A stretch of DNA of 64,000 nt, taken from NCBI GenBank assembly GCA_033439295.1, contig JAVTLE010000008.1, forward strand, positions 2,940,341-3,004,340. Reading direction: 5' to 3'. Origin of the DNA: Deuterostichococcus epilithicus (Eukaryota > Chlorophyta > Trebouxiophyceae > Prasiolales > Stichococcaceae). A program made the translations under genes and the position numbers. This document shows positions 2,583-64,000 of this stretch, piece by piece. Each line of letters opens with the position of its first letter. The stretch's first letter is position 1. The notes under the pieces were generated by a model. That model worked only from the letters and a program-made list of their open reading frames with translations. It did not search any database and was not told the DNA's origin.

Positions 2583-3024
2583 GCCATTCCTCAGGTGTTG
2601 CGCCATGCTTGCTCTTAGAGACGCGTGCTCTTCCGCCACCTGCGTGCCGCTTTGATGAAGCTAGTGTGAATAAGTATGGCGTTTTGTTGCAGGTAGTTTC
2701 ACACTTTGTAGGATGAACTGCACGGCCTTGCTCTAGCTGTGCGGGTGCTTGCACGGCTGTGGCCCAATGAGAGGCTCGTACCTGGGTTGCCGCCCAGACC
2801 AATTGCTGGTGATGACTGGTCTGAGCAGGACTCGACAATCGAGCTTGCAAGAGAAAGACTGAGTGAAAAATCAACCACCAGCACCCTTGTCAATGCGACA
2901 TCATTGTGGGACGGAACAAAGCCAATCACGGATTTTTCGGCGGTACACAATGCACCAAGACTCGCTCCAGTGAAACTTGCGGCCTCGTCGAAGCCAACAA
3001 CAGGCTGCGCTTCAAAAGACGATA
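2583..3024. promoter_or_regulatory. Divergent intergenic region
   Basis: About 440 bp separate the minus-strand 117-aa gene from the possible plus-strand secreted-protein start, so both promoters should lie here. No TATA box or other motif could be assigned with confidence. Confidence 0.35.
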
Positions 3025-3120
3025 ATGCCTGCAGACGGAATGCACGCTGCTGGGCGGCATGCGGCCCTGCTGATGATGCTGGTCCTGCTCACCTTCACCG
3101 GCACCCAGCCTGCTGCATCG
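3025..3120 (+). CDS. First exon of a probable secreted protein (rest unresolved)
   Basis: Two in-frame ATGs (3025 and 3040) open a 32-codon exon that ends at a GTGCGTG donor after 3120, phase 0. The peptide is a textbook signal sequence: a His/Arg-containing n-region, then ALLMMLVLLTFTGTQPAAS. The same design, a short first exon that ends just after the signal peptide, occurs in genes at 8441, 12687, 16599 and 18539. Downstream exons could not be fixed. A cysteine-containing open stretch near 4013-4130 (NTSPVCCIRDQLVGKSC) is one candidate, but its phase was not reconciled. Confidence 0.45.
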
Positions 3121-5598
3121 GTGCGTGTGTCGTGACAGCATGTTTTCCCAGCAGTGCATGTTCACACTCAGTATCAGGTTGTGCAGACCGCAAGCTCTGC
3201 TGATCCAATGCAATCCAGCAGATGACCAGCACATGTATCAGCATGGCAGCCGCGCGTCCATGGCGATCTGAGGCCCTGCCGCAGCATCAAATCTGCGCAA
3301 GCTGACAGTCTCAGCCTGAGCAGCGTATCGATGACAGCATGTTGTCGTTCTATTGCTCTACGGAGCTTCCAGAATCAGCGCAATGAGCCACTGTTGACAG
3401 GCTCTGTGGCCTGTCTCTGCTGCCTGTAGTTTCCAGAACCGCTAGGCCTAGCCAACGCCATGCCCTGCAACAGCAACGGCACAAGTTTCCACTGCGGCAA
3501 ACACAAACTGCGCAGCACCAGAAATGCCGGCAGCTTGTCATTCGGAGACATTGTAGCTCTTTCCTGACAGCGCAGGCTATCCTGGGCGTGGGCGCACCAT
3601 GCGGTCCCGATGACCTCTGTTCCAACGACGCCGCCGGGCCTCTGGGCCTGGAGTGCCGGTACGCATGCAGTTGCCCAGACCCTGTGCCGTGGCATAAGGT
3701 GCATTTCATCAGCAGTACTGCCTGCCTGCTGGCGAGTGACCTGACACTGTAGTATGCGCGCGGCTTCGCAGGGGCACCAAATGGCTGACAACTCCAGCCG
3801 CTGGCGCAGGTGCAACCAGGCAGTTGCCGCGCTGTGCGAGTGCGCATCAGAACAGCTCTATCTTCAACTTCCACACTGTGGCTGGCAGCCGTGGTCGACC
3901 CTGCTTTATGCCAGTCCCATGCATTTTGCATTCAGCGCTCATGTCTCTGATTTCTGTCCTGGAACGACGATCGTGCCGCCTGCTGCTCTTCTGGGGTTTG
4001 CCAATTAGAAATGATGCGACCAACGAACTGTGCACGCAGGAACACCAGCCCTGTGTGCTGCATCCGCGACCAGCTGGTGGGCAAGAGCTGTCTCATTGCA
4101 GACCAAATGCAACACTACCAGCATTGTGCCACACATAAAGGAGTCAAGCTGGCTGCAAGTAGTGAACTACCCCGCCCAAAGCGGAGCTGTCACCAAGGAT
4201 GCAGTAGCCACCAGTCTTCCAGGGGCGTGACTTTTCAGCCAGCAGGCTGGAGACTCTGTCTAACCCCGCATGAGCCTCCTGCAGGTGGGACCGAACTGCC
4301 GGTGAGCAACCCGAAAAGCACGGCGATGGGGTCGCTCTTTGCAACCACATAAAGGCAGTGTCATTGCCGATGCAGCTGACGGCCTCTGTGTTTCCGCCCG
4401 TGTGCATTCCGAAGCAGCATGGAATAGCGCTTACTGCTGCTGGGCTTGACACTATGTGACTTTGGTGCTACGCTTTTGCCGCAGTGACGGTACGTCCACA
4501 TGTTTAATTTCTGGTCTTGCCAGCTGCGCATCTGTTCTTCGTTGCAAGCCACATTATGGGCAGCCATCGGGCCTTAAGTAATTCTTCAATCTCTGAGCTG
4601 CAGACTTCGACTGCTGTTTTGCCAATGTGAGCACCCGCACCTACCTGCTGTGCTCGCTCACACATATGCATTGTTGCACATACGTACCCTGCCAAATAAC
4701 AACGCCAAGGTGTCCTTTCGAAAAGATGGCTAAGATTCCTGGGTTCTGCTTGCAGATATGCGACCCCCAATCGCGCTTTTGCTATGATGCATCAGAGTGA
4801 CCTAGAACACAATGCGCGCGCCCTGATGGTCAGTAGGCAAGCGGTCACGCCGGCCTGATGATGCGGAATAACTCTGCAGCGGCGGTCTCGCTTGAATGTT
4901 GATGAGCTAGCGTAATGCCGTCGTGGTCTCTGACCTCAGTTGCATGTTCTGGCCGCAAACCATGACCAGCTGTCGTGTCTTAACACCATGTGGACAGCTG
5001 ATGGTGGAGTACAAAAGCACAGCGGCAGGCTAGCTGCGTGCATGATGGCACAGCCTGTAGTGCTAACCGGTGGAAGGTTTGTTTACAGCTGCTGTAAATT
5101 CCAAAACTTTTGAACGACCACCGCACCAGGAGAGAGGGCCCGACAGCAGGATCAAGAAAACTTGGAACTCGTTGCAGGTTTGTTCCATCTTCCAAAGCCG
5201 TGAGGTGCATTTCACTGACATTTCCGGCACCTTCCCCGGCGCATCCCCTCGTTCTGATTGAGCGCGTCAGTTGACAGCAGAGCAAAAGCACGAAGTGTCC
5301 CTGCTAAAATCTTTCCTCAGCTGATATCTTCATGCATCCCTCCGTGGCGGCATCGCTGCCTCTTGTTCGTGGTCGCCAACATCGACCGTACTATCAGTGC
5401 TTGCTCTGCAATAAGGCAAGCCTACACGTCCGCCTGCCGGCTTGCCTGCTTCGAGGTCCACAGCCACTAGCGGTCCTCGACTGCTGAGACAGCAATGTCG
5501 TCACGACACAGCGTATCTCGATGTTGCATGCCCATCACTGCCAGGCCGCGCCAGCAGCAGTCTGCATGAGCTGCAGGGATGCCACGGCCTCGCCATTC
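3121..5598. other. Poorly resolved region, possible short exons
   Basis: Presumably contains the remaining exons of the gene that starts at 3025. Open frames here are short and without clear codon bias, and none was recognised. No repeats were noted. Confidence 0.35.
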
Positions 5599-55400: not shown

Positions 55401-58400
55401 CAGTCTTCACAAGCACGCAGCAACCGCTTCTGCCTGACATCTGCCTGCAGGTTTCGGGCAGCTGTTTGGCGCTGGCATCGTGGCGGCGCTGGGCCGGCGT
55501 GCCGGCACCAATGGCGGCCTCGACCTGAAGACTTCGCCAGGTCTGCCACTGGACTTGTCGCCTGCCGTCATGTAGCGCTGATGCTCTTGAACGCTGAACC
55601 GCCCGTGCTCCTGATGCTGTTGCATGCCGGACCTCCTGTTCTGGTCCGCCTGACTCCTACAGCGTTCCCAAGTCCCCGTCTGTGTCAGCTGATGCTAACC
55701 TTTCACTGCATCTTGATCTCTGTGGTCACTGCGCGCAGGCTTGGGTGTGTCGCAGATCATTGGGCCGGCGGTGCCGCTGCGCGGCGCGGACAGCGGCACC
55801 AGCGCCGGCGGTGCCCGGCCGCACATGCGGCAGCTGAACGGTGTGGAGCGCGGCCAGGGTCTGGGCGTCATCCTGGAGGTGCAGCGGGATTTGCCCGACG
55901 AGTTCGTCTACTTCCAGGTGCCACCTCCAGATGCCAGAGCTCTGCCCAGTGCCAAGCCTCCCTTGCCGCTTTGACGTCGCCTGCGGCCAGGTTGCCGAGT
56001 CCTTTCGCAGTTCTGCCAGCCTTCGCAGGTCACTCCACAGCTCGCTGACAGGGTGACCCCGTATCCGGCACGAACTGCAAGCTGCACAACTGTAGGCAAC
56101 CTCATCGCCACTGTTTCTGCTCCTCAGGTCATCCTGGGGTGGCTGACGGAGGACGGCTCCATCCACGAACGGTGCGTCACGCGCCGCGTGCGTGCCACGC
56201 TGTCGCCGGCGGCGTACCTGCAGTCCGTCGACTCCCCGGCTGCGGCGCTGCTGCTGGCCAAACGCATCGTGCTGGAGGCGGCGCGAACGGGCGCCGCGCG
56301 GGACCGCGCTGCCGCGGCGCAGCTACGGTCCGCCATAGGTGATCGTGCACGTCGTGGATGGCTGTTTCAACCTTATGACATTCCACTTTTGAACACTGTG
56401 CCGGCGATTTGCCGCACGCATCAGGGCACCGCGCCATAGTAAGTAGCTCCACGCCTCCAGTTTGCTTTCTTGTCCGGCGGAGATGTTGCTGCATGAGCCC
56501 GCAGCAGGTGATATGACCTCTCACAATAGATAATACGACACTGTGTTTCTTAAACCTCTCAGCGTCTGCAAGCCCGCCAGGCCGCCCAGCAAGCACAGCT
56601 GCGTGCTTTTGGGTTTAGGGTTTTCGAGGCTGTCGCACGCTGCTGGATAGGACCGTCAACTGCCAATAAAGGCAGACGCTCAGACCTTTTGCGCTGAGAG
56701 TCCGCCTCAAGCCATATTCGACTGCGTGAACGCCGTCAGTGCTGCCCCTTGTAGGGCGGCACCTGTATCATGTGGCAGTCAAGCTGGGTGAGGCGCGCGA
56801 GGAGGGTGGCGGCGGCTGGTTCACCGCCGCGCGCCGGTCCTGGGTGCTGCCACCGCAGCTCCTGCCCATCGCGCAGGTGCGTCGCAGCAGGCTGCGGCAT
56901 CTGTCCAACCGTTGCTTCCCCGTACGGCAGTGCATGGAAGCGGCGGAAGCAAACAGCAAACATAGGCCACCTGTGATGGTTCGACAGGCCTGCAGCGTGC
57001 GCCGCCGACATGGGGCAGCCGGACTTGCTGCCTGCAGCATCCGCACACCGTGCGCAGCAGCTTTCGTAGCCAAGCAGCAGTCCAATCTCACTTTGTGTGG
57101 CCCTCATTCACAGAGTCGCTCAAGTCGGCAAGCGTCGGCGCCCAGGGCGCACGGCGCAGGCGTGTGAACACCACTCTGCAGCGCGCGGAGGGTCCCGCAG
57201 GACTTCCAGACCACCCCAAAAGCTCAGAGCAAGGCAGCTGTTTTGTGTCGCAGGCGCTGTACCACCTGCAGCGGGGCCCCATGCTNGGGGAGGTGGCCGG
57301 GCACCCCGACGAGCGTGCGGCGCTGGCGACGGTGTTCCTGAACGCGGCGGCGCCGCTGGCGGGCCGCATGCTGAGCCCCGCGCTGTACGTCTTTGACGTT
57401 GCCGCCGGCGCCTTTGCCGCCGTGGAGCCCGTGGACGTTGCGCTCGTCGGCGGTGCGGGGTTCTTGTCTTGCGCTCGTCACGAAGATNCTGTCCTGAATC
57501 TCAGGCTGGCTCTGCCAGCCCACGGCTGCTGGCCTGTCCCACTGTGCCTCGCAGGACGATCTCAAGTCGCAGTCCCTCAAGGGGGGAGCACGCAGTTCCT
57601 CATGCGGGCCTGAGCGCGCCAGCAGCAGGCTTGCGCATCATGACCTGCCGCTTCGCGAGCCTGCGCATCACGACCGGCTGCGCGTGTCATGCAGCCTCCA
57701 TGCACTGCCGTCGCGCGCAATGCCCAATTCGAGTGAAACACAACCAGGTTTCTGCGACGCTGCAGGACCGCCGCTGGTGCTGGACCACGGGTCCTCCGTC
57801 TTCGTGTGGCTGGGCGGCAACAGCGGCAGCAGTGGCGGCGGCTGGAGCCGGGAGGCGCTGACCTCAGCGGCGCAGGGCTTTGTGGAGGGCCTTGCCGGCG
57901 GGCGGCTGCCGCTACCGGAGGTCCGCGTCATTGCAGAGGTGCGGCAGCGGCAGCAAGCACGACATGTGGTTGACGCAGGGCTTTTGCTCGAAGTACGTGA
58001 GTAGAAAGGAACGCCCCACAGAAAAAATGCTGTGAACATGGAACCCATCATACCACGACGTTGCAATCGTTGCTGGGGGCAAGGGCCGGCGGCAGAGCGT
58101 GCTTGCGCACAGCTGCTGCTGCATCTCGGCCTTCGTCGCCGGCGTAACAGGTAGAGCCAGCCCTGGTGACGCCTTTGCTGCTGCAGTCCGCTGCAGCGCC
58201 CGGCTGCTCGAGAAAGAATTGTTTGACTGGCCAAAGTTTCGGCAGTCTAATTCACATATTTTCCATGTACTGTAAGATCTGCGGGAAGGCTGGGAACCCG
58301 CGCCGCCTGCAACATGGTGTATGCCAGGTTGCAATGCGAGCACAGTCGCCAGCAGTAGCTGCGCTGGACTAGTAGCGCCCGGCTGCTCGAGAAAGAATTG

Positions 58401-59560
58401 TTTGACTGGCCAAAGTTTCGGCAGTCTAATTCACATATTTTCCATGTACTGTAAGATCTGCGGGAAGGCTGGGAACCCGCGCCACCTGCAACATGGTGTA
58501 TGCCAGGTTGCAATGCGAGCACAGTCGCCAGCAGTAGCTGCGCTGGACTAGTCTGCGGCGTCAGCCAGCAAAGCAGCTTTTGGGGCGAGGTAGTGATAAG
58601 TTCTTTCACAGTCGCGCCCCCTGCAGAGCACTCCGGCTGGTGTGTAGAAACATTACACACAGCGCAGCTGAGCGCATGCTTGGCGCCCACTGTTGCACGA
58701 CTCGCGATTGCCAGTGTGATCGCGCAGATCGCTGCGGGAATGCGCTGAGAATGCGCCGCTGCCGAACAGTCATTCTTCTTCTTGTCTTTTTAATCTGCTG
58801 AGAACCTGCGTGTCTGCCTGGCTTGGCCTTCGCAAAGGGGGCAATCGTCAGCTGCCGGGCACATCGAGCAAAGACAGACATGAGCAGCCCTGTGCCTGCT
58901 CTGCAGCAGGTTTGTACTGCTTCTCGAGCAGTAGTAAAGGGGCCTCTGGCCACTTCACCCTGCGCATCGTGGCACCAAGCAGCCCGGCTCCCACAGAAAT
59001 TTTCTGAGCTGGCTCACACTCGATTTGCAACGTGCCATTGTTACTGGGCTGTTGTGTTCGTTTACGCTTCTTTCAGACGGACAGAATGCATTCGCGACAG
59101 CCGCATTTCCAGTGGACCGCATGTTTCGGCTCAGTTGTCCTGTCCATGTTGTGCAGATGCAGTCCCTGCCAGGCAGCCCAGTGCCATGGCGGGACTGACC
59201 TGACGAGATTGGTCGCCCGGTGCATAGCGTTCGGGGTCGCAAAGGTGTTGCCATTTGCCACTGCTGCAGGGGTCGTCCGATTTCCGGTATATTGCTGCGC
59301 GGCTGGCGCCCAGCCTACGCGACTCCCCCAGCGAGCAGGTGGAGCACTACCCGAGCGCCTCCGCCGCAGCTTCAGCGGCTGCAGCAGCAGCCGACGAGGG
59401 AGCCGGCGTGGCGGCAAGCCTCACGGGCAAGCTGCTGCTGACGGAGGAGGCCAGTCTCCTGCAGTGGGCGCGGCACTACAGAGTGGAGTTGGCGTCCGAG
59501 AGCAATGCCGACGCTGCGGCGGCAGCGCTGGCGCGGCTTCAGCTGCCGCGTCGGGGCTGA
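52468..59560 (+). CDS. SEC23: Sec23-family COPII coat protein (divergent)
   Basis: Exons joined in phase: 52468-52619, 52748-52901, 53087-53239, 53356-53442, 53778-53936, 54194-54453, 54637-54814, 54944-55160, 55451-55540, 55739-55917, 56128-56338, 56779-56876, 57254-~57435, one near 57555, 57766-57938 and 59270-59560 (TGA). After a Gln/Pro-rich N-terminus comes the zinc finger (CVACGAFLNPYCE, then AWSCLFCAHSN), trunk (MNLALLTFGAALSVWQL, MARGP, GPGTVDLDAIDG, VSVDVLAAGSAAVNV), beta-sandwich (VILGWLTEDGSIHERCVTRR), helical (YHLQRGPMLGEVAGHPDERA) and gelsolin parts (PPLVLDHGSSVFVWLGGN, SSDFRYIAARLAPSLRDSPS). Sec23 is the Sar1 GTPase-activating coat subunit at ER exit sites. It looks closest to the plant Sec23-like branch. 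A poly-Gly insert sits in the trunk. Exon ends around 57435-57600 are uncertain. Ns at 54708, 57286 and 57488. Confidence 0.92.
56611..56620. repeat. Telomere-like GGGTTTAGGG in Sec23 intron
   Basis: One and a half TTTAGGG units inside the intron 56339-56778. Similar short motifs lie in introns near 23413-23423 and 42741-42750. Confidence 0.8.
58195..58552. repeat. Perfect-length 179-bp tandem duplication in Sec23 intron
   Basis: Copy one 58195-58373 and copy two 58374-58552 begin AGCGCCCGGCTGCTCGAG and end CTGCGCTGGACTAGT. Only one substitution was seen (CCGCCTGC versus CCACCTGC). Confidence 0.95.
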
Positions 59561-61007
59561 TGCTATGGCAGTTGGTCGATTGACACAGAGCCGGCTGACC
59601 GGGGCAACGGCAGCAGTGCACTGTCACGATCGACCGCAAGCTAGAGATGGTTCTTGGTTTCCGCCACTGCACCGAGGCCGCCGCCGAGGCATCCGCTTTC
59701 AAACTTGTAGGGGTGCCAAATTCCATCGGCTGGGGCTGGTACCGCCGTCCTTTGAAAGGGTTGCATGTGCCTCCTTCACTATCCTATTCCACCTCCACCA
59801 TTGGCACACTTTGCCGCCCCTACTTCGTCGCGTCTGTCGTCTGATACTGCACACCAGGCAGTCACGCCCATATGCGGCTGGCCGCTCCATGGATGAAACC
59901 CTAAACCCTGAAGCATGCGGGCAATTGAAGAGTAATTGTCGCAGTCTGCTGACAGCAGCACAGCAACCAATGTGCAGGTTCCCTGCACCTCGAACGTTTT
60001 CAACGAAAACGGCCGCCGTCCTTGTGCGGTGCGACTTTGCGTGTCAGAACCTGTGTACCTGTGGTCTCAGGGCACAAGCCGTCGCGGGTTCGATTGTAGC
60101 GGACGCTGATCCGCTCTACTTCCTAGCGTGCCTATCCGCATTTTGGATTTTCACCGGGAAAATCTGCTGCACTCCCAGCACTTTGCTGTTTGAATTTTTT
60201 CTTTGCTGCAGCCGGAACAAGGGTTCCCCTCGGATATGCGTTGCCGGCGTCGAAATTGTGTAGTCATCTCAGCGCCAAGGTTCTCACAGCCGTCACAGGG
60301 ATATCGCAAGCCTGCGCAGACTCTCCTCGAACCGTACCCCGCACGATTTTGGTATGCGTGCACATGGTTTGAGTTTGCCTGCGTGGCTGACGCGTGTCCT
60401 GAGGAAATCGATGTCCACCACTTGTGCACTGAGTTTCGTTGGGGTGCCATATCGAAATGTCTTACAGAACCCTGACTCGCTGCTCGTATCCCGCCAATTT
60501 TGCCGCTAGGGTGCGTATTAACTTGCCCTCCCACCCATCGATCGAACTTTGGCATTGATGGGACAACAGGCTTTGCATACAATCACCCTTGGACAGGCAT
60601 GCCATGCCGCCTGCAGAAAGCCCGGCGCTTGGTTGGCGGATTCGTGCCGCTGCATGCCTACATGTATGTGATGACTTCGTTGCTGTGCCCATTCCCATGG
60701 TCTCCAGTCTAGTGCTGTTTGCTCCAACGACTAGATGCGGGCAGCAGGTCTGGCAGCACCAGACATCGTACACAAAACCTGTTGCACGGCTCCGTCCTGC
60801 TCCGTCTTGCAGTGCTGTTCGGGCAGTAGCTCTGTTGCTGCTTGGGCGAAATCTGTTGTTCACCTAATTCTGATACCTTGGCTGTTGTATGTCTCCAGCG
60901 ACTGGCAGCGCTCGATGAGACTTGTCAAGCATGTGCGTCCTTTGCGGCTGCAGCTCCTGCGAAGTCTGAGTGCAAGTTCGACAGCACGTCCGCTGGCAGG
61001 TGCGTAG
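59561..61007. other. Intergenic, AT-richer, no gene seen
   Basis: Composition shifts away from the GC-rich coding part. A telomere-like AAACCCTAAACCCTGAA lies at about 59896-59912. No coding frame was supported. Confidence 0.45.
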
Positions 61008-61033
61008 GGTTTAGGGTATAGGGTTTAGGGTTT
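61008..61033 (+). repeat. Interstitial telomere-like array 1
   Basis: Imperfect TTTAGGG units (AGGGTTTAGGGTATAGGG followed by TTTAGGGTTT) directly precede the first copy of the 672-bp unit. Confidence 0.85.
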
Positions 61034-62351
61034 ATGCATGAAGAGCACTTGCCCATTGTGCGCCTCATAGCTCGGCTTGTAGAGCGTGGATGGCGGGGGG
61101 TGGGGTGGCAAAAGGAAGGTGCACACTCAGGGTACACGTCTGGAGTGGCGCTCGTGGTGTCGCGCCCCACCCCTTGCCATGGTGGCACTTGCAAGAGGGT
61201 GTGGTGGTTGTGCTAGTGGCCCCCTCATCGAAGTAGTGAGGTGGGAAGCGTTGTGGCCCCACCTAGGGCGCCGCCACCCTCGTGGCACCTCATTAGGTCG
61301 TGGGCATGCCGTGTGTAAGAGGGCCGGCCTTGCCACCGCCGTGGGCGCATGCAAGGGCACCAAAGGGGGGGCACTCCCCCGCCGGATTTTCCAGGAAATC
61401 GAGTATTTCTGGGTATATAAAAGTGCGTAGGTATTGAGGTGCCGGGTGGTGTGATCGCACACGGCGTGCAACACACGGCGCGCGCACGGGAGGGGTGGGG
61501 GGCCATGCATGCACCCAAAGGTGTGGCAAGCACATGGTTGGGCCCCCCACCTCGTGCGGCGCACTCAAGCCAACTCCCCAACATGCATGCACACGTCTCC
61601 ACCCCATCGTGGGCCGCGCCACGCGCCGTGGGGCGGTCTGACCACCATCAACCACAGCCTCTATGCGTTTGAAAGGCCACGGTTAGGGTTTAGGGTTCAG
61701 GGTTCATGCATGAAGAGCACTTGCCCATTGTGCGCCTCATAGCTCGGCTTGTAGAGCGTGGATGGCGGGGGGTGGGGTGGCAAAACGAAGGTGCACACTC
61801 AGGGTACACGTCTGGAGTGGCGCTCGTGGTGTCGCGCCCCACCCCTTGCCATGGTGGCACTTGCAAGAGGGTGTGGTGGTTGTGCTAGTGGCCCCCTCAT
61901 CGAAGTAGTGAGGTGGGAGGCGTTGTGGCCCCACCTAGGGCGCCGCCACCCTCGTGGCACCTCAGTAGGTCGTGGGCATGCCGTGTGTAAGAGGGCCGGC
62001 CTTGCCACCGCCGTGGGCGCATGCAAGGGCACCAAAGGGGGGGCACTCCCCCGCCGGATTTTCCAGGAAATCGAGTGTTTCTGGGTACATAAAAGGGCTT
62101 AAGTATTGAGGTGCCGGGGGTGTGATGGCACACGGCGTGCAACACACGGCGCGCGCACGGGAGGGGTGGGGGGCCATGCATGCACCCAAAGGTGTGGCAA
62201 GCACATGGTTGGGCCCCCCACCTCGTGCGGCGCACTCAAGCCAACTCCCCAACATGCATGCACACGTCTCCACCCCATCGTGGGCCGCGCCACGCGCCGT
62301 GGGGCGGTCTGACCACCATCAAACACAGTTTCTATGCGTTGGAAAGGCCAC
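61034..62351. repeat. Two tandem copies of a 672-bp subtelomere-like unit
   Basis: Copy one starts ATGCATGAAGAGCACTTGCC at 61034 and copy two starts with the same words at 61706. About 647 bp are shared with roughly 15 differences; the remainder of the period is the telomere-like spacer. Each copy has a TATA-like word in the last third (TATATAAAA at 61413 in copy one, changed to TACATAAAA in copy two). Both strands are open for about 110 codons, but substitutions show no coding pattern. Confidence 0.9.
61681..61705 (+). repeat. Interstitial telomere-like array 2
   Basis: GGTTAGGGTTTAGGGTTCAG and GGTTC separate the two 672-bp copies, the same position as array 1. Confidence 0.85.
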
Positions 62352-62431
62352 GCGACAGGTCTCGTCGCCCACGCGCCAACTTGCGCGACTTACCCCCCCA
62401 CGATCGTAACACATCCCGGGAGCCAAGTACC

Positions 62432-62914
62432 TCAAACCGGCACGCATGGCGCGGGAGCTTTGTCAAACGTCTCCTGTGTGCATGAGAGGCCCACCTTGAG
62501 GTCGTCCGGCACGCCGCCGCCCGCACGGCGTAGGTGCACGTCAGATCTTCCCCTTGTGTGCCACGTGAACCGAAAGCCCACCTCAATGCCACACAATGCG
62601 GCCGTGGCTCTTGAAAAGTGAGTTTTAATGGAGCAGAGCGTGGGAGGGGACACGCAACGCACGGCTGGTGTGGTGCGTGCATTTGGGGGGGTCGGAGGCA
62701 TGGTCGGGAGTCGGGCCGGCGGCTCAATGGGCGGACACATGTTGGGCTTCCCCATGGCACGGGAATGGCCATAACTTGAGCGTCTGACCTCGGATCTGGA
62801 CGCGGCGACCGGCAGCGGCACCGCAGAGGCCTCAGCTAGGCGCATGGCCAAGTTCTTTTGCACATACACCCCGTTTGCGCACAGCAACCTCATCTCAAAG
62901 TCCAAGGGGCCCAA
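62432..62914 (-). CDS. Possible mobile-element ORF, unknown protein
   Basis: A 160-codon minus-strand frame. Its ends look coding: MRLLCANGVYVQKNLAMRLA near the start and IEVGFRFTWHTRGRSDVHLR then VGLSCTQETFDKAPAPCVPV near the end. The middle is Pro/Thr-rich and could include an intron. It lies downstream of the recombinase-like fragment on the same strand, so it may be a second protein or 3' part of the same element. No family was recognised. Confidence 0.35.
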   Translation of the reverse strand: MGPLDFEMRLLCANGVYVQKNLAMRLAEASAVPLPVAASRSEVRRSSYGHSRAMGKPNMCPPIEPPARLPTMPPTPPNARTTPAVRCVSPPTLCSIKTHFSRATAALCGIEVGFRFTWHTRGRSDVHLRRAGGGVPDDLKVGLSCTQETFDKAPAPCVPV

Positions 62915-62939
62915 GGGGTGCCAACCTCAATCGACCACC

Positions 62940-62958
62940 CCCCTAAACCCTAAACCCT
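62940..62958 (-). repeat. Telomere-like array in reverse orientation
   Basis: Two CCCTAAA units plus CCC, opposite in orientation to the arrays at 61.0 and 61.7 kb. Confidence 0.85.
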
Positions 62959-63362
62959 TGACCCAGCCACGCACGGGAGGTCCGCCACCATGTGGGGGCC
63001 ACGTGACATGGCCGTCAGCCACGCGGGAGGCCGTTACATGGTGTTCCTGGTCGCTACAGTGCATGATTTCATTTTTATATTGGTAATATATAGGCACACA
63101 TGGCTACTTCGAGTCAGAAAATCATAGCTCTCGATTCCATGGGCGGAATCCAGATCTGATTAGCTCCAGATGCTCGTCGTGACATGGCGGAGGCAGCCAC
63201 GGCCTGAGCTTTGAGCCACAAGTGCTCTGCATTCTGACCGGTTGGCCGCCGAAGGCAAGGGGGTCCGTGACACACAATGTCTTGATGGAGGGTGGCTCAC
63301 CACCCCAAATCCCAACATGTGGTGGCTTGCCAATGGGCTGAGGCACACCTGGTGTCCCACCA

Positions 63363-63943
63363 TCAGTCACTATCAAGGTCGATCTCGATGTCATGCTCCA
63401 CATCCTCACCACCCCCCTCCACCTCCTCTCCACCCACACCAACTCCCGCCACATTGCCTCTCATGGCACGCCTCAATGCTTTCATGCCATCCACGGCCCT
63501 TTGGGCATCCCGTTGAGGCTTGGTCCTATCATAATGCTTCATGGCCGTGGAGGGGGCATGCCCCATGGCCGTGGCAAGCTCCTCCTTGGTGGGTGCTCCC
63601 TCAATTGGGCGAATTGCCCCATGCACCACACCAATGGTGATGTGCCTTCACCACACAAACGAAAAGGAGGTGAGCCCCTACCTATGACGAGCTTGGTGGG
63701 CATGCGTGGGGTGTTATCAACACACATTGCATTGCATTGCATTGCATTGCATTGCATGGGGATTTGCACCCCTACATTGAGAGCCCACCTTGCAAGGTTG
63801 GGAGCCATCCTCTTGCCACATATCTTCTCACATAGATCCCCAAACATCACCCTCCATTGCTTGCTCGTGAAGCCCACGCTTGTGATTGGGTCAAAGAAAA
63901 GGGGTAGTGCCCCTTGTCTCCCAANGCAATGAAGCACCCACAC
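63363..63943 (-). mobile_element. Tyrosine-recombinase-like fragment (Crypton/DIRS-type?)
   Basis: Two minus-strand coding blocks. The upstream one (about 63943-63800) reads FDPITSVGFTSKQWRVMFGD then EKICGKRMAPNLAR and meets a GTGGGC donor. The downstream one (63629-63363) reads IRPIEGAPTKEELATAMGHA, then PSTAMKHYDRTKPQRDAQ, and ends in an acidic tail (EDVEHDIEIDLDSD). The string AMGHxxxTAxKHYDR matches the C-terminal His...Tyr block of tyrosine recombinases, with Tyr the likely nucleophile; the Arg of NLAR or the one in IRP may serve as a catalytic Arg. The upstream part of the enzyme lies beyond the N-filled window end. The blocks are separated by a probable short intron with CATTG repeats. 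Family assignment is by eye. Confidence 0.55.
63725..63754. repeat. (CATTG)6 microsatellite
   Basis: Six exact pentanucleotide copies inside the probable intron of the recombinase-like gene. Confidence 0.95.
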
Positions 63944-64000
63944 ANTTGAGGAATNGATAGGGGGAANGGNAAGAGCAAGGGGGGGGCCNNAACANATGTG
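63925..64000. other. Low-quality end with scattered Ns
   Basis: Single and double Ns from 63925 to the end suggest an assembly gap or contig end, often seen beside repeats. Confidence 0.8.

Follow-up and report, generated by a model that had tools for sequence, protein, structure and literature searches.

The gene fragment near the right edge of the window (the whole stretch of 64,000 nucleotides analysed, bases 2,940,341-3,004,340 of contig C7) lies in what we judge, at slightly better than even odds (probability about 0.52), to be a copy of an end-restricted, telomere-seeded subtelomeric element, comparable to Y', Sultan or MoTeR elements, that is spread by recombination, capped by telomerase and accompanied by a passenger, the decayed 3' part of a recombinase-like gene. 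The copies form one subtelomeric repeat family rather than dispersed insertions, and the assembly shows directly where they lie, that they share one orientation, that their 3' boundary is fixed while their 5' truncation varies, and that they are amplified in tandem.

The element and its copies at contig ends

The right edge of the window is the end of C7 (3,004,340 bp). The genome searched comprises 46.8 Mb in 21 contigs, with 42 contig ends, and its telomere repeat is TTTAGGG; because C8 is a contig of 29 kb, 'end' means contig end throughout. The analysis covers this single genome, whose contig ends are collapsed repeats with Ns, and the element copy counts given below are lower bounds. The first-pass annotation had placed the gene fragment in a subtelomeric setting. 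It was right, and the case is stronger than the window alone could reveal. Telomere-like motifs lie near the frame (61005-61034, 61682-61706 and, inverted, 62941-62954) and large repeats adjoin it. The 'N gap' that it had mentioned consists in fact of eight scattered Ns (63925-63995) just before the end of C7. The features of the window are as follows.

61005..61034, + strand: telomere-like tract, TTTAGGG-type, 4.3 copies (Tandem Repeats Finder; junction read), separating unique chromosomal DNA from the first element copy
61035..61681, - strand: 5'-truncated element copy, core 1646-2291, with the fixed 3' terminus at 61035-61052
61682..61706, + strand: telomere-like seed between both element copies
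61707..63951, - strand: nearly complete element copy, core 49-2291, with the 3' terminus at 61707-61724; its 5' side enters low-quality contig-end sequence
62432..62926, - strand: 164-aa open frame, the second frame of the first-pass annotation (there 62432-62914)
62941..62954, + strand: internal inverted telomere-like motif, CCCTAAACCCTAAA on this strand
63363..63647, - strand: E3, last exon-like frame, 94 aa plus stop, with a recombinase-like His/Tyr end
63522..63569, - strand: AMGHAPSTAMKHYDRT block (contains GHAPSTAMKHY)
63646..63788, - strand: putative GT-AG intron of 143 bp, AAG/GTGGGC ... GAAG/G
63725-63757: CATTG microsatellite within the putative intron
63776..63907, - strand: E2, upstream exon-like frame, with box-II-like APNLAR at 63788-63799

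The CATTG microsatellite occurs at the same place in other units, with a copy number that differs among them. Elsewhere in the window (58195-58552), a 179-bp sequence is present in two tandem copies that are 99% identical.

The repeat unit is 2,331 bp long and consists of a 2,291-bp core and a telomere-like seed, which measures 40 bp between tandem copies. The 5' end of the core points toward the chromosome tip, and its fixed 3' end meets telomere-like sequence on the inner side. The 18-bp 3' terminus of the core (GCAAGTGCTCTTCATGCA) has 38 exact matches in the 46.8-Mb genome, and a reversed control has zero; all 38 lie less than 22 kb from a contig end, all 38 have their 3' side inward, and they are found at 20 of the 42 ends. 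Six further matches carry one mismatch: two at ends, one in an interior relic on C6 and three isolated. The terminus is followed by four bases (CCCA, CTCA, CGCA, TGAA or TAAA) and then by telomere-like repeats, exact or degenerate, past which the DNA differs from end to end at the junctions inspected; the innermost C13R fragment adjoins a CCTAAAG-type variant repeat. At several ends, the full-length copies have one common degenerate seed.

Genome searches with the 94-aa frame returned 23 matches, of which 22 are no more than about 20 kb from a contig end and one is interior (C4:151575). Searches with parts of the unit found it at C3R, C4L, C4R, C7L, C7R, C8R, C9L, C10R, C11L, C11R, C12L, C12R, C13L, C13R, C14R, C15L, C15R, C17L, C18L and C19R, with fragments at C16L; no match to the unit was detected in the first 3 kb of the telomere-capped ends C1L and C5L. 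These two ends (C1:1-3000 and C5:1-3000) have another repeat in common, 85-88% identical over about 740 bp. Interior relics number two, the C4 match and C6:160979-161932 (91% identity). The C6 relic (within C6:160300-162700, 680-1668) retains two CCCTAAA repeats at its 3' end; it may mark an old chromosome end or be a copy that has moved. The start of C11 holds a partial copy followed by nine tandem units, of which seven are full and two lack the same 122 bp, all pieces of this array being 99.7-100% identical to the reference unit. Since the two units that share the deletion lie 9,204 bp apart, blocks of the C11 array must have been duplicated.

On their 5' side, the copies either continue into a shared seed or are cut, and the cut points are many and different. 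Beneath long telomere arrays, the core is cut at 1067 (C3R), 1454 (C4R), 1730 (C17L), 1900 (C8R), 2126 (C15R) and 2233 (C13R); in two of these six cases, the junction includes a few bases that are filler or uncertain. Internal cuts occur at 1646 (C7R, this window), 1001 (C12L), 1030 and 2232 (C13R), 2080 (C3R), 2069 and 1968 (C9L) and 1309 (the C6 relic). At C13R (C13:2756300-2758381), fragments of 59, 1262 and 60 bp are set between degenerate telomere tracts (CCCTTAA and CCTAAAG variants), and those of 59 and 60 bp keep the exact 3' end. Several copies are irregular: the inner C12R copy is rearranged and stops short of the 3' terminus, inverted element pieces are found at the extreme ends of C7L, C10R, C11L, C12L, C12R and C13L, and the C9L copy cut at 1968 is interrupted by an insert of 421 bp that has inverted ends and is accompanied by an 8-bp duplication. 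This insert (C9:1-10000, 2833-3253; inverted ends matching at 17 of 20 bases, duplication CTAGGTGG) resembles a small non-autonomous DNA transposon, and an end sequence similar to its own occurs beside the C6 relic.

Some of the terminal sequence calls for caution. C9L, C14R and C15L have an identical terminal sequence (first 120 bp), Ns included, and the first 282 bp are common to C7L, C12L and C13L. Such identity, Ns included in the former three, indicates that the assembly probably reused a collapsed-repeat consensus, so the upstream stretch E1 (see below) at C9L, C14R and C15L may be an assembly consensus, as may three of the 38 exact termini, which lie in the stretch shared by C7L, C12L and C13L.

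Possible recombination and reverse transcription at the ends

From this anatomy alone we infer how the element spreads. By way of telomere-like sequence, a short or broken end would recombine with a seed within the array of a different end, and that array would then be copied outward by break-induced replication, unequal exchange or perhaps a rolling circle. Recombination at the seed followed by outward copying would make every addition begin at the same 3' boundary. Later breaks within the element would be capped by telomerase. The distal core would be the decayed 3' part of a tyrosine-recombinase-like gene, carried as a passenger, and that gene would have been cut within its upstream stretch when the founder unit was capped. 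In Saccharomyces cerevisiae, Y' elements are described as amplified by recombination, break-induced replication included (PMC13177704).

Three observations favour recombination: blocks of the C11 array are duplicated, degenerate seeds are shared, and junction types cluster. The clustering was seen in a tree of the core tails, for which 23 of 26 tails (16 of them different) were kept after two short ones and the atypical C13R_2 had been dropped: the junction types cluster with four changes, a number as low being reached in 4-5 of 500 shuffles, and 10 of the 13 inner branches of this tree are open. Simple copying through the seed would not be expected to give identical 500-bp tails with different types of junction, yet two sets of such tails exist; they, the rearranged inner C12R copy and the quiet E2 (three variable sites in 132) count against the explanation that we prefer.

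It is possible, if somewhat unlikely, that the unit is instead a non-autonomous retroelement of the MoTeR2 kind, whose RNA is reverse-transcribed onto telomere ends or nicked repeats by a reverse transcriptase (RT) supplied in trans. Its polarity, its fixed 3' end, the telomere repeats at its 3' terminus and the many 5' cut points would all follow, and MoTeRs are described with the same features (PMC7367193). The identical tails with different junctions would also be accommodated, and the very short C13R fragments flanked by telomere-like tracts suit truncated retrotransposition as well. However, the unit was not seen to be accompanied by any RT, recombination is needed to explain the shared degenerate seed and the duplicated blocks, and in the inspected neighbourhoods of exact and one-mismatch matches there was no partner element ending in this 3' terminus. 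Among the RTs inspected, the one closest to a contig end lies at C9R (also C2L); it was considered as a telomeric partner and rejected, having no telomere repeat there. We favour recombination over reverse transcription onto telomere repeats. MoTeR arrays are described as also rearranging by recombination (PMC7367193), so both processes may act.

The recombinase-like gene piece

The GHAPSTAMKHY block from which the gene fragment was first recognized is real: it lies on the minus strand, in the open 94-aa frame now called E3, and its His-to-Tyr spacing is that of lambda Int. The active site of tyrosine recombinases follows the scheme HxxR ... H ... Y. The gene piece has GH-x8-Y, with NLAR at the position of HxxR, and the E2 frame shows APNLAR at the place of the SPHxLR seen in recombinases. 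The putative intron, one of 24 frame-keeping GT-AG pairs, would join E2 and E3 in frame into a product that reads PNLARH, at the site where a recombinase should have SPHxLRH; of 13 copies checked, 12 have its donor (C11R begins inside the gene) and all 13 its acceptor. For a moderately strict GH...Y pattern, defined post hoc once the match was known, 100 order-2 Markov simulations predict 0.03 occurrences per window, and one is observed; for the loose GH-x8-Y pattern there is no enrichment, with 2 observed and 2.8 expected.

Profile and fold searches lend the motif no support. Frames and spliced versions searched with hmmscan gave no significant match in Pfam, NCBIfam, PHROGs or PADLOC, an outcome that the first-pass annotation had itself named as refuting its reading; nor did phmmer find one among PDB sequences (one hit, E 1.5), and PF00589 matched nowhere in the genome. 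AlphaFold models built from single sequences reached a pLDDT of 61.5 for E3 and 42.4 for the C16L frame, and Foldseek queried with the poor E3 model returned no match. We also built a custom HMM from 17 recombinases (lambda Int, XerD and 16 phage regions less one, dropped because the wrong frame was its longest). It gave 4.8-6.1 bits on the first constructs, with 1-6 of 1000 composition shuffles as high, and 3.5-6.5 bits (E about 1-7) over the 24 possible splices; the favoured splice, picked by its donor and not by its score, came tenth of the 24 with 4.5 bits, a value reached by 2 of 2000 shuffles. The match falls ungapped on the GH...Y block, below significance, and by this weak measure the frame ranks third among the 1095 window frames of at least 40 aa. 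Relatives of the gene piece were found neither in IMG/VR (by protein and by motif) nor in GTDB contigs nor among phages (tblastn; best E 0.5, antisense to an annotated gene without a Pfam match); as to the motif-pattern searches, one gave a single hit, out of frame within a 632-aa ORF, and the other none. The label 'tyrosine-recombinase-like' is thus plausible by motif, through the His-Tyr spacing and the PNLAR/PNLARH block, and backed by no profile.

For the suggested Crypton, DIRS or viral origin there is no positive evidence. Cryptons are described as elements that are bounded by short terminal direct repeats and carry a complete YR gene (PMC3212892; PMC3627910), and here only the 3' part of a gene is present and the unit boundaries are telomere-like seeds. 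The combination of RT/RH and YR that would point to DIRS or TATE elements was not seen either: none of the 64 RVT_1 matches lies beside the unit, and an RT may still lie past the unfinished contig ends.

Comparison of 13 copies of the gene piece, the nine C11 copies being collapsed to one, showed 3 variable sites in 132 for E2, 9 in 136 for the intron, 17 in 279 for E3 and 64 in 404 for the 3' flank. E3 shows no purifying selection: 12 of its 17 variable sites alter the residue, codon positions 1, 2 and 3 account for 7, 5 and 5 sites, and C12R alone carries 10 of the 17, including a stop. In E2, two of the three variable sites are silent, and the low variation could be constraint or chance. 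The second frame put forward by the first-pass annotation, extended here to 164 aa, was rejected as a gene: it is not conserved, being intact in 9 of 15 aligned copies, its variable sites number 20, 23 and 15 at codon positions 1, 2 and 3, and it is probably non-coding. No Rfam RNA was detected in the unit at gathering scores.

A coding-like stretch further upstream, E1, is truncated by the seed in the tandem units but remains uncut at C16L and also at C9L, C14R and C15L, where the assembly is doubtful; at the latter three, matches to E1 overlap those to E2 but are in another frame. C16L has a further 88-aa piece, for which the genome search gave no second location, and no box-I arginine was recognized by eye in the C16L stretch, where the gene is incomplete. 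As a frame as long as the whole C16L stretch arises in 72 of 2000 random sequences, this stretch may not be coding. The gene may be longer than seen here and continue past some contig ends.

That the motif is a product of chance in an ordinary subtelomeric repeat without recombinase ancestry seems rather unlikely. The low HMM scores, the modest rank of the favoured splice, the ordinary frequency of the loose pattern, the behaviour of E3 and the frequency of C16L-like frames among random sequences would all suit it, whereas the rarity of the stricter motif (a post hoc figure), the few shuffles that reach the HMM scores, the ungapped match on the His/Tyr block and the presence upstream of a box-II-like block in a compatible splice frame speak against it. 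On these sequence grounds, descent of the gene piece from a tyrosine recombinase is quite likely.

It appears improbable that an intact recombinase-based telomere-homing element, of which C16L would show a longer piece, resides beyond the contig ends and inserts into TTTAGGG repeats, 5' end outward, and that its truncated, telomere-capped derivatives make up the repeat at about half of the contig ends. Distinctly improbable is a tyrosine-recombinase element that inserts itself into telomere repeats and of which the repeat is a truncated remnant: the motif, the telomere-like sequence on both sides of the copies, the longer upstream stretch at C16L (and, with the assembly in doubt, at C9L, C14R and C15L) and the precedents of TATE (PMC6681497) and nimaviruses (PMC10871703) can be cited for it, but there is neither an intact gene nor a recognizable box-I arginine nor a profile match, a conservative recombinase does not predict graded 5' truncation, and the frames of E1 and E2 disagree where the two overlap at C9L, C14R and C15L.

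Relation to known elements

The subtelomeric element is of a known kind, of which the recombinase remnant makes it a variant. In Chlamydomonas, the Sultan elements of subtelomeres are tandem repeats tied to telomere-like sequence; the likeness, by description, is that of subtelomeric tandem repeats with telomere-like sequence in a green alga, and we know of no recombinase remnant in Sultan elements.

MoTeR1 and MoTeR2 of Magnaporthe oryzae (PMC7367193) resemble the unit, by description, in their tipward 5' end, in the telomere repeats at their 3' terminus, in telomere-capped 5' truncations, in interstitial telomere tracts and in arrays amplified by recombination. The marks of the MoTeR type (distal 5' end, 3' end on telomere repeats, 5' truncation) are all found here; in contrast to MoTeRs, the unit contains a recombinase-like remnant, and neither an RT nor an RT partner was found. 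The Y' elements (PMC13177704) are likewise tandem subtelomeric units with frequent interstitial telomeric sequence, and the marks of that type (end-restricted tandem units, interstitial telomeric sequence, block amplification) are present as well. However, Y' elements are 5.2-6.7 kb long and have a conserved helicase frame, whereas no conserved frame was seen in the 2.3-kb unit.

Two systems link a recombinase to telomeric repeats, and both likenesses are by description. TATE elements of kinetoplastids (PMC6681497) combine a recombinase gene with telomeric repeats in tandem clusters, but encode Gag-like, YR and RT/RH functions, whereas the unit has no RT and a partial YR-like gene. The telomere-specific tyrosine recombinases of endogenous nimaviruses (PMC10871703) are also linked to telomere repeats, but in viral genomes of about 280-400 kb; the 2.3-kb unit holds a gene remnant, and no viral gene was seen in it. 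Zepp of Coccomyxa (PMC3446292) is, like the unit, a green-alga repeat reported from chromosome termini, yet it is a LINE that forms a single nested, mostly internal cluster per chromosome, and the unit is without RT. As a separate observation, RT matches in the present genome cluster at a single place on 14 long contigs (C3-C7, C9-C15, C18 and C19; for example C4 1.215-1.228 Mb, C5 1.964-1.979 Mb, C6 336-366 kb and C19 747-763 kb), the others being scattered, and these clusters recall the one-per-chromosome Zepp clusters of Coccomyxa, which have been proposed as centromeres (PMC3446292).

In the literature searched, which included few subscription journals, no title concerns a green-alga subtelomeric repeat that bears a recombinase. 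The signature of the family is sharp, namely one 3' boundary, telomere-like seeds, many 5' cuts and 38 of 38 exact termini in one polarity, and the family can thus serve to ask whether ends are restored through recombination or through reverse transcription primed by telomeres. Should the longer recombinase gene prove real, the element would be a possible further case, beside TATE and the nimaviruses, of tyrosine recombinases linked to telomere repeats.
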